A stretch of DNA of 34,640 bases, from positions 1-34,640 of the forward strand of contig SCQD01000312.1 of assembly GCA_004299145.1 (NCBI GenBank), read 5' to 3'. The notes beneath the pieces were generated by a model. The model saw only the letters and a list, made by a program, of their open reading frames with translations. It was not told the origin of the DNA and searched no databases. A program made the translations under genes and the position numbers. This stretch comes from Methylococcaceae bacterium (lineage in GTDB: Bacteria; Pseudomonadota; Gammaproteobacteria; Methylococcales; Methylococcaceae). Position 1 is the stretch's first letter. Each line of letters begins with the position of its first letter. Of this stretch, positions 6,844-9,352 are shown one piece after another.

Positions 6844-7830
6844 TCACACGGCTTTGGGCGGATGTTGCGTGAAAGTGAAAGGATCGGTGTAAATATCCTG
6901 CAAGGAAGCACCGGCAATGAAGGCTTTTTGCTTGGTGCCTTGCACCATTTCCGGGTGGCCGCACAAATAAAGGCGCCAGCCGCTGAGCCGGTTGACGGAT
7001 TTCAAGGCCATTTCGTGCGCCCGGCCCAGCTGGATTTTCGGCAGTTCATGGGGCCGCGACAGCGTGGGCGTGTAATTGAAATGCGGATGCTGATCAGCCA
7101 GCGCGCTCATTTCTTCGACGTAATAAATACCGTCCTGGTGAGAACTGCCATGGTAAAGATGGATGGGACCGCTGTGGCCTTGGCGCAGCGCATCGCGGGC
7201 GATGCCATACAACGGCGCCAAACCTGAACCCGTGCCGATCAGCAGCAAGGGCTGCTCGTGGCGGGTGGGTACGTAAAAGCACTGTCCCATGGCTTCACTG
7301 ATGGTCAGGTGGGCGTTGACTTTCAAGTGATCGCACAACCAGGTGCTGACCAGGCCGGAAGGGATGCGCCGGACGTGCAGTTCCAGGTAGTCGTCCAGCT
7401 CCGGCACGCTGGCCAGGGAATAACTGCGCGAAACGTTGTTGGGCGTGACGATGTTGATGAACTGGCCGGCGCGGTAACTGAAACCGTCCGGTTGAGCCAG
7501 GCGAATGCGCACGATTTCGGCGCTCAGGTGTTCGATTTCTATGACCTGGCTGGTATAAGTCTTGGCGACCGTGCGCAGCTTGGCGACTTCAAGGTCCGCC
7601 TGGGGGCGGCACATGCAGGCAAGAAATTGCTTGTCGTATTTTTGCGTGTCTTTCAGTCCTTTTTGCGATTCGGGAGGCAGCGCGCCTTCGCCTGCCTGCA
7701 TCAGGCAGCTCTGGCACGCCCCCGCCTTGCATCCGTATGAGACGGACACGCCGTGACGAAGCAGACAATCCAGGACGCTCTCGTCCCCTTCGGTAACATA
7801 ACTATCGCCTTCGTGGTGAATTTGCGGCAT
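6844..7830 (-). CDS. Ferredoxin-fused FAD/NAD(P)H reductase, probable electron donor to the adjacent globin
   Basis: The 328-residue flavoprotein has three parts. A plant-type [2Fe-2S] domain shows C34-X4-C39-X2-C42 and a final Cys in LACMC (72 or 74). A FAD-binding barrel carries RSYSLAS (135-141). A NAD(P)-binding domain carries GTGSGLAPL (199-207) and YLCGHPEMV (288-296). This matches reductases of the phenol-hydroxylase/BenC type, which pass electrons from NAD(P)H through FAD to the iron-sulfur cluster. The start is the ATG at 7830 with GAAAGAGAG upstream, 24 bases past the globin stop, so the two form an operon. Together they carry the same functional parts as a flavohemoglobin (globin plus FAD/NAD reductase) on two chains, with an added iron-sulfur domain. 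The partnership is inferred from context and the NsrR site. Confidence 0.88.
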   Translation of the reverse strand: MPQIHHEGDSYVTEGDESVLDCLLRHGVSVSYGCKAGACQSCLMQAGEGALPPESQKGLKDTQKYDKQFLACMCRPQADLEVAKLRTVAKTYTSQVIEIEHLSAEIVRIRLAQPDGFSYRAGQFINIVTPNNVSRSYSLASVPELDDYLELHVRRIPSGLVSTWLCDHLKVNAHLTISEAMGQCFYVPTRHEQPLLLIGTGSGLAPLYGIARDALRQGHSGPIHLYHGSSHQDGIYYVEEMSALADQHPHFNYTPTLSRPHELPKIQLGRAHEMALKSVNRLSGWRLYLCGHPEMVQGTKQKAFIAGASLQDIYTDPFTFTQHPPKAV

Positions 7831-7854: not shown

Positions 7855-8223
7855 TCAGCGACCCAGCACGGGGTTGCGGGTGGTTTCGGCGATTTTCATC
7901 ACTTCGACGATGAGATAGCCGGGAACTCTCAGCTCTTGCAAGGTTTTTTGCAAATGGTTCAACACGGCGGTGACGTGGCTGTCGTTCAAGCCGCGCGCCA
8001 CCAAAGGCGCGTGAGCGGTCGTCAAATCCTTGCCGGTATAATTATTGGGGCCACCGAACGCCATAGTCAAAAAAGCTTTTTGCTTGGCGGCCTGCTTCTC
8101 TATATCCACGCCTTCGAAGAAAGGCTGGAGAGAGGGATCGGCTATCACCTTGCCGTAAAAAATGCCGACCGCGGCGTCTACAGCGGCTTCACCGCCCAAT
8201 TGTTCGTATATGGATTGAGTCAT
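7855..8223 (-). CDS. glbN: Group I truncated hemoglobin
   Basis: The 122-residue heme protein fits the group I truncated 2-on-2 globin family (TrHbN) from end to end: IYEQLGGEAAVDAAV at the start, FY with Tyr23 as the B10 distal residue, DPSLQPFF, FLTMAFGGPNNYTGKDL and the proximal His F8 as H71 in TAHAPLV. Members bind O2 tightly, and mycobacterial HbN oxidises nitric oxide to nitrate. The ATG at 8223 has an AGGAG site; the longer frame adds an unrelated 11-residue leader. It is the first gene of a minus-strand operon with the reductase, and the NsrR operator lies 51-73 bases upstream. Repression by NsrR, relieved by nitric oxide, is therefore expected, which supports a nitric-oxide dioxygenase role. 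Confidence 0.93.
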   Translation of the reverse strand: MTQSIYEQLGGEAAVDAAVGIFYGKVIADPSLQPFFEGVDIEKQAAKQKAFLTMAFGGPNNYTGKDLTTAHAPLVARGLNDSHVTAVLNHLQKTLQELRVPGYLIVEVMKIAETTRNPVLGR

Positions 8224-8273
8224 CTTATGCTCCTGGTGGATTAAGGGATTGTTCAAAAGGGTACAGCCGATTT

Positions 8274-8296
8274 AAGATGCATGCAAAATACATCTT
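8274..8296. promoter_or_regulatory. NsrR operator between the globin operon and nsrR
   Basis: This 23-base site starts AAGATGCAT, ends ATACATCTT, and is an 11-1-11 inverted repeat. It agrees with the published NsrR consensus (AAGATGYATTT, N, AAATRCATCTT) at all but two positions (GC in place of TT before the centre). It lies 51 bases upstream of the globin ATG and 82 bases before the nsrR GTG, placed to control the globin-reductase operon and perhaps nsrR itself. Confidence 0.92.
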
Positions 8297-8378
8297 GAAG
8301 AAAGTCTACAAAGCCTGCTCCCGCCTTGTCAAATGACGGCACCCAAGGGGCTCAAAAATCAAACCAAGGTTCTACACC

Positions 8379-8834
8379 GTGCAATTGACCAAACACACCG
8401 ACTACGCGATACGCGTCCTGATTTATCTGGTCACCCAGGAGGAGGCCACCATCAGCCAGATGGCCGATTACTACCAGATTTCCCGCAACCATCTGGTAAA
8501 AGTGGTGAATTCACTCAGCCGCAAAGGCTTCGTGATCACCACGCGCGGCAAAAACGGCGGCGTCAAACTGGCGCGTCCGGCCGCACAAATCCGCGTAGGC
8601 GAAGTGGTGCGCTGCATGGAGCCGAATTTCAACATGGTGGAGTGCTTCAATTACAAACGCGCCCACTGCGCAGCCTTGCCCACCTGCGGGTTGAAAAGCG
8701 CTTTCAATCTGGCCGCCGACCAGTTTTTAGCGGTATTGGACGGTTACACGGTGGCCGATGCACTGTTGACGGATAAAACCAGCGGAGCAGCGCCAGCCGC
8801 TGTCGAGAGGGTTTTGCCGGAGCTGCATGCATGA
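8379..8834 (+). CDS. nsrR: NsrR-type Rrf2-family nitric-oxide-sensing repressor
   Basis: The 151-residue regulator begins MQLTKHTDYAIRVLIYL, the Rrf2 winged-helix signature, with the recognition helix near ISRNHLVKVVNSLSRKGFV (about 34-52) and the wing TTRGKNGGVKLA. Iron-sulfur ligands C89-X7-C97-X5-C103 have the spacing of NsrR rather than IscR; C79 is extra. NsrR holds an Fe-S cluster that NO destroys, releasing DNA. The start is GTG at 8379, chosen because the domain starts there exactly. An NsrR site is directly upstream and the regulated globin operon is divergent, so autoregulation is likely. The 3' end overlaps the HPP gene by ATGA, so they are co-translated. The C-terminal 20 residues beyond the cluster domain are not conserved. 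Confidence 0.92.
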   Translation: MQLTKHTDYAIRVLIYLVTQEEATISQMADYYQISRNHLVKVVNSLSRKGFVITTRGKNGGVKLARPAAQIRVGEVVRCMEPNFNMVECFNYKRAHCAALPTCGLKSAFNLAADQFLAVLDGYTVADALLTDKTSGAAPAAVERVLPELHA

Positions 8835-9352
8835 GCCGGCGCGGCAAACACGAACCCTTTCACTGGTTACTGGCGGGATTAAGCTGGCTGGGCAGCTTGC
8901 TGGGCTTGGGGGGTGTGGGGTATTTGGGGGAGTGGCTGGCGCTGCAAGGCTTCGACATGGCGTTCCTGATCGCTTCTTTCGGCGCCTCGGCCGTACTCCT
9001 GTACTGCGCCCCCAGCGTTCCTTATTCGCAGCCCCGCAACGTTTTGGGCGGACAAATTTTTTCCGCTTTTGTCGGAGTCACCGCCTACCAGGCGGCACTC
9101 CCTCTGCCGCTGTGGTCGACGGCGGTGCTGGCGGTCACGGCTTCCATCGCCGTGATGCAGCTCACGCGAACGCTGCACCCACCCGGCGGCGGCACTGCCT
9201 TGGCCGCCGTGCTGAGTGACGAGCATATCCACGCCATGGGCTACTGGTACGTCTTGTCGCCGGTGGCGTTGGGAACCCTGGTCATGCTGGCGGTTGCCCT
9301 GCTGGTCAATAATCTGCCGCGCAGCCGCCGTTATCCTTTGACCTGGTTCTAA
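8831..9352 (+). CDS. HPP-family integral membrane protein
   Basis: The 173-residue protein has about four hydrophobic segments and the family hallmark TLHPPGGGTALAAVL (about residues 115-129), plus SFGASAVLLYCAPSVPYSQPRNVLGGQ (about 49-75), which is conserved in HPP proteins. Plant and cyanobacterial relatives have been linked to nitrite transport. The ATGA overlap with nsrR and the nearby NO-detoxification operon make a nitrite-handling role reasonable, since NO chemistry produces or consumes nitrite and nitrate; that function is inference. It converges with the TauE-family gene, 2 bases separating the stop codons. Confidence 0.85.
   Translation: MSRRGKHEPFHWLLAGLSWLGSLLGLGGVGYLGEWLALQGFDMAFLIASFGASAVLLYCAPSVPYSQPRNVLGGQIFSAFVGVTAYQAALPLPLWSTAVLAVTASIAVMQLTRTLHPPGGGTALAAVLSDEHIHAMGYWYVLSPVALGTLVMLAVALLVNNLPRSRRYPLTWF

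Follow-up and report, generated by a model that had tools for sequence, protein, structure and literature searches.

The window analysed here is a 34,640-nucleotide stretch of DNA from a Methylococcaceae bacterium (contig SCQD01000312.1 of assembly GCA_004299145.1). The locus of interest lies on both sides of an intergenic region. The first gene on the reverse strand (7855–8223) encodes a group I truncated globin of 122 amino acids (Pfam Bac_globin, 64.6 bits). The next gene on this strand (6844–7830) follows 24 bases downstream and encodes a 328 amino acid NAD(P)H reductase composed of an N-terminal plant-type [2Fe-2S] domain followed by FAD and NAD domains (Pfam Fer2, FAD_binding_6 and NAD_binding_1). 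Divergent to the globin gene on the forward strand is nsrR (8379–8834), which has a GTG start and encodes an Rrf2-family repressor (Pfam Rrf2). The end of nsrR overlaps by four bases with a gene for an HPP-family membrane protein (8831–9352; Pfam TM_HPP, 174.9 bits), a putative nitrite transporter. Globin and reductase are probably encoded in one operon, with nsrR divergent. The first-pass annotation had placed such an operon within 7855–8834; the shared strand and the 24-base gap uphold the arrangement, although the reductase gene lies outside that interval.

The intergenic region contains a palindromic, strand-neutral NsrR-type operator of 23 bases at 8274–8296 (AAGATGCATGCAAAATACATCTT). The globin gene starts 50 bases to one side of it and nsrR 82 bases to the other. 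The operator matches the pattern AAGATGYATNNNNNATRCATCTT with no mismatches, which bears out the operator proposed from the first reading, and sites matching the pattern are also present before the globin genes of relatives. A scan of the 4.64 Mb assembly with AAGATGYATNNNNNATRCATCTT identified 8274–8296 as the only place with 0–2 mismatches, while the reversed control pattern gave no match. Three other places have 3 mismatches; these were considered as further NsrR targets in the genome and rejected, as their positions are unconvincing. NnrS is encoded in the genome, but none of the sites found (0–3 mismatches) is on the NnrS contig. A sigma-70-like promoter for the globin operon is predicted at 8332–8303 on the reverse strand from a consensus match (TTGACA-18-TAGACT, 10 of 12 positions; about 0.2–0.3 such elements are expected in the stretch by chance), and it stops six bases ahead of the operator. 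Since the promoter-like element lies this close to the operator, a bound repressor would cover the presumed start region of the globin operon. A weak terminator-like stem (8329–8308, reverse strand; 0.2–0.3 expected by chance) overlaps the promoter-like element.

The regulator had been named NsrR on first reading, with C89, C97 and C103 as its cysteines. The Rrf2 family, the divergent orientation and the three cysteines hold, but the protein scores 136.5 bits against the NCBIfam NsrR model, for which the cut-off is 182; this is nonetheless its best-scoring model. The three cysteines are kept in 40/40 matches over 110 residues and C79 is not. A search against the PDB gave a match to the NsrR structure 5n07 (E 1.9e-11). 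NsrR-type control of the globin operon, as predicted from these sequence features, is supported.

The assignment of the globin to group I, with Y23 at B10 and H71 at F8, is confirmed by the Pfam match and by alignment. The pocket residues are TyrB10 (Y23), GlnE7 (Q44), LysE10 (K47), GlnE11 (Q48) and HisF8 (H71), and all five are identical in 149/149 distinct matches above 50% identity, an identity filter that favours such agreement. The window globin has the features of group I truncated haemoglobins, namely a 2/2 fold, HisF8, TyrB10 and Gln at E7/E11. Its AlphaFold2 model (pLDDT 89.8) has as its best fold match Chlamydomonas THB1 (6cii; Z 17.7, rmsd 2.0 over 121 residues, 44% identity), with which a cyanoglobin and other group I globins are tied; mycobacterial HbN (Z 16.3, 30% identity) falls behind THB1 and the cyanoglobins. 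THB1 also has the best sequence score among relatives with structures. LysE10 is the sixth haem ligand in THB1, THB2 and THB4 and points away in the THB11 structure, according to the available text of the source (PMC7082302). It may likewise be the sixth haem ligand of the window globin, in which case O2 could bind more slowly.

The four cysteines of the reductase (C34, C39, C42 and C72) are kept in 122/122 matches with more than 35% identity and more than 270 residues. The best NCBIfam match is PRK05713, yet the score is 186.2 bits against a cut-off of 338, and the BenC and MmoC models give 132.4 bits (cut-off 430) and 131.6 bits (cut-off 500). The window reductase therefore has the Fer2-FAD-NAD order of the BenC, MmoC and PRK05713-type reductases but scores far under their curated cut-offs.

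That the globin and reductase would be found together beyond the source genome is borne out by a genome search, in which the pair is widespread. In 369 genomes of the class, the top 62 reductases (E <=4e-81, with at most six candidates per genome scored, among the matches listed) include 50 with a globin gene directly upstream, at a median gap of 26 bases. Weaker reductase matches, of which there are many (E about 1e-72 and above), were treated as another family. From the globin side, 84/369 genomes have a match at 1e-10, and 67 have a strong match (E about 1e-35 or better); the pair is present in 50 of those 67. Among the 87 strong globins of this sample, 37 have no adjoining reductase, a few of them being cut by contig ends, and this set includes tandem two-domain globins and one genus with the globin directly before an HPP gene. 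Tandem group I globin domains in a single frame with no adjoining reductase are found at L135 (1627–2490), L184 (3018–3830) and L188 (3071–3883). Three consecutive globin matches occur at two further loci (L032, L033), and one frame (L133, 811–1953) has a ZapG-like domain ahead of a group I truncated globin.

Among the 12 of 62 reductases that lack an upstream group I globin, three are fused to a globin, one is beside another truncated globin (L124), two are beside hemerythrin genes, one is at a contig end and five have no recognised partner (G035, G076, G286, G301, G306). Each of the three fusions (L121, L122 and L123, from at least 3/369 class genomes) is a single open frame that runs from Fer2, FAD and NAD domains into a truncated globin and ends in a CxxC...CxxC tail. 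These chimeras resemble flavohaemoglobins with the domain order reversed. Their globins are distant from the window globin (23–41% over partial alignments), and Lys/Gln at E10/E11 is kept in all three (K397/Q398 in L123). In the phylum sample of 398 genomes the only full-length fusion match is in a genome already in the class sample (G367), and no fusion of a truncated globin with a Fer2 reductase was found among the papers listed, judged by title or the start of the abstract. Hemerythrin genes adjoin the same reductase family at L127 (556–1128, Pfam-checked) and L128 (3338–3889); a switch of partner from globin to hemerythrin may have taken place at these loci.

A tree of the reductase matches above 270 residues (137 rows, 132 different, built by a quick method) places the window reductase with 125 others, 112 of which are in truncated-globin operons, and a branch with support of 99 splits off eight outgroup reductases. 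Of the 126 rows on the globin side of this branch, 113 are reductases of globin operons; the others are the three fusions, both hemerythrin neighbours, the L124 reductase and seven partnerless reductases. The far side contains the outgroup and three further partnerless reductases. Long branches are placed unsurely and the details are uncertain, and the three fusions do not form a single group. In this tree the Methylococcus capsulatus reductase groups with one from a genome of the same family as the window genome (G136), which suggests that the window genome belongs to the methanotroph order.

The partnerless members would fit a reductase that serves a different acceptor and shares only its regulation with the globin. 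We consider this very unlikely, as three members of the same family are fused to truncated globins and others neighbour hemerythrin genes. The fusions and hemerythrin neighbours suggest that the reductase is specialised for O2- or NO-binding proteins of the haem or di-iron type. The pairing of globin and reductase that the first-pass annotation put forward is supported by conservation and by these natural fusions, and on sequence grounds the fusions are the strongest support for electron transfer between the two proteins short of biochemistry.

A scan of named contigs with the globin found 130 relatives, of which 80 loci were kept, and methanotroph-order taxa appear in 50/80 of the record titles. 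Methylococcus capsulatus carries the pair at L009. Three records under other names, Gallionellales (L060), Ferrovum (L023) and Mariprofundaceae (L072), have it as well. Outside the class, the best-scoring loci (L140–L153) of the 66 genomes with a match, from 398 genomes of the phylum, were inspected; with the window itself (L148) excluded, one or two globins and the reductase occur together in 13/13, and nsrR adjoins the pair in 12/13. These loci group with L072, from which we infer that they belong to Mariprofundaceae.

The upstream regions of 96 globins from the 80 loci (>50% identity, at least 150 bases upstream) were compared. The globin is the first gene of its operon in 87/96 cases, with a reductase within 600 bases in 77 of these 87. 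Where a divergent nsrR is present (22 operon-first globins), a site with at most 4 mismatches is found in 22/22, with at most 3 in 19 and a perfect one in 10; for the remaining 65 operon-first globins, which have no divergent nsrR, a site with at most 4 mismatches is found in only 17. The reversed pattern gives such a match in 1/96, and random stretches in 39/1920, some perhaps over true sites. In 151 genomes of the order, at least 116 of which have the globin, the operator pattern is matched to within one mismatch at 17 sites in 16 genomes, compared to one site for the control pattern. Sixteen of the 17 precede this globin (15 by coordinates among the matches listed, and L154), and the remaining one precedes an nsrR-type gene elsewhere (L155). 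At L154 (G438), next to an operator with one mismatch, both the globin and the reductase are broken into two frames, through decay or sequencing errors. Near-perfect sites are specific to the globin and nsrR where present; since the site is missing from most operon-first globins that lack a divergent nsrR and, at no more than one mismatch, from 135/151 genomes of the order, NsrR control is a sub-type of the system.

The predominance of methanotrophs among the record titles would suit a globin that acts as an O2 supply or O2 buffer, either for respiration or for methane monooxygenase, with the NsrR control incidental. The available text of a 2024 paper gives the view that truncated globins of groups II and III bring O2 to the monooxygenase (PMC11102522). 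The Gallionellales, Ferrovum and Mariprofundaceae records speak against this explanation, as does the globin operator being the sole strong site of its kind in the genome, and we regard it as highly improbable.

Full-length Hmp over the family cut-off is found in 1/151 genomes of the order (G378, which also has this globin), and ten further genomes match Hmp in the reductase half only. Hmp was ruled out as a candidate in the source genome, where a Globin search returned three weak single-domain matches (26–30 bits, frames of 142–162 amino acids). Three short single-domain Globin-family genes (L136, L137, L138) are present elsewhere in the genome, two of them ~0.8 kb apart on one contig (C159). 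Given the near-absence of Hmp, the pair probably takes its place in this order.

HPP proteins are nitrite transporters of cyanobacteria and chloroplasts according to the available text of PMC10605003, which cites Maeda 2014. An HPP gene also follows nsrR in a genome of the same genus (G376, L156). HPP matches occur in 10/80 of the relatives' loci, a raw count over loci that are related to one another, with the Pfam check made for L081. They also follow the unpaired globins of L173 (Pfam-checked), L175 and L177 (by eye), all of one genus. Other unpaired globins are beside a Rieske gene (NirD-like, L170) and a molybdopterin oxidoreductase gene (L176). These neighbours favour a role in nitrogen assimilation, in which the globin would handle nitrite or NO. 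It would serve as an NO buffer or a nitrite reductase, and the task of the reductase would be to hold it in the ferrous state so that it can reduce nitrite instead of oxidising NO. Such a role is unlikely in our view, because the NsrR-type control and the TyrB10/Gln pocket suit NO detoxification, and the gas that induces the operon would itself be the product of nitrite reduction. A literature search for NsrR, the HPP family and nitrite together found no paper.

We favour a two-component, NO-inducible NO dioxygenase, and judge it likely from the gene order, operator, protein families, conserved pocket, conservation and fusions present in the sequences. Without NO, holo-NsrR would bind at 8274–8296 and block the globin promoter. 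NO would damage the iron-sulfur cluster of NsrR, allowing transcription of the globin-reductase operon. The truncated globin in its ferrous-oxy form would then convert NO and O2 to nitrate, leaving ferric haem, and the reductase would restore the ferrous state with electrons that NADH or NADPH delivers and that reach the globin by way of FAD and the [2Fe-2S] cluster. The HPP protein would move nitrite. The whole system would amount to an Hmp divided between two chains, in which the globin is of the 2/2 type and an iron-sulfur domain is added. The earlier reading of the pair as the parts of Hmp on separate chains is supported.

Hmp has globin, FAD and NAD modules and is under NsrR control; these features and the presumed NO dioxygenase function are common to the window pair. 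The pair is not an Hmp in the strict sense, as Hmp is a single chain with a 3/3 globin while the window has two genes, a 2/2 globin and an additional [2Fe-2S] domain. The three natural fusions also differ from Hmp in that the reductase comes first. Mycobacterial HbN is, like the window globin, a group I truncated globin, and it is an NO dioxygenase; it is not known to have an adjacent dedicated reductase. Chlamydomonas THB1 is likewise a group I 2/2 globin with Tyr/Gln/Lys/Gln at B10/E7/E10/E11 and a separate flavin reductase, but it is eukaryotic, has a different enzyme as its donor and is not in an NsrR operon. THB1, THB2 and THB4 are reduced by the diaphorase of nitrate reductase and by ferredoxin/FNR (PMC7082302, available text).

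The closest known system is the glbN-lpg2536 operon of Legionella pneumophila, which encodes a cyanoglobin-type truncated globin and a ferredoxin reductase with the same proposed function (PMC1274295, PMC3820574). This operon is a predicted NsrR target, the sole one in that genome, where hmp is absent, as far as the available text of these sources describes it. The window likewise has a truncated globin gene followed by one for a ferredoxin-type flavin reductase, with an NsrR-type site, lpg2536 being compared by description. It differs in its lineage, in the divergent nsrR followed by the HPP gene and in the presence of nnrS in its genome. The novelty implied in the first-pass annotation does not stand: oxidation of NO by an NsrR-controlled globin/ferredoxin-reductase operon was proposed by Rodionov in 2005 (PMC1274295) and repeated in a 2012 review by Gardner, in which ferredoxin reductases are suggested as common donors of truncated globins (PMC3820574). 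The window is a further, better supported case of this published idea. A literature search by the tag lpg2536 found no further paper, and work under other names is possible. In a Methyloprofundus a group I truncated globin gene is among the ten most transcribed, and the authors suggested a response to NO (PMC8788690, available text). The additions to the 2005 idea from sequence comparison are the broad conservation, the fusions, the invariant LysE10 pocket, the near-absence of Hmp in the order and the HPP link.

More tentatively, and with slightly more doubt than belief, the reductase family may be dedicated to haem and di-iron proteins and may define a second class of flavohaemoglobins, itself widespread. 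In the two-chain form of this class, a LysE10 group I truncated globin and a [2Fe-2S] flavin reductase would stand in for Hmp, both in Mariprofundaceae and in gammaproteobacterial methanotrophs. The inverted form would be a single chain that starts with the reductase and ends with the truncated globin and CxxC...CxxC tail, and in a further form the reductase would be paired with hemerythrin. HPP nitrite transport would be linked to the class. Single-domain truncated globins have to be re-reduced, and how this happens is a long-standing problem; a conserved, NO-regulated partner gene together with natural fusions makes the electron donor directly testable. The pair would explain how organisms that lack Hmp survive NO, above all the methanotrophs, which make or meet it.
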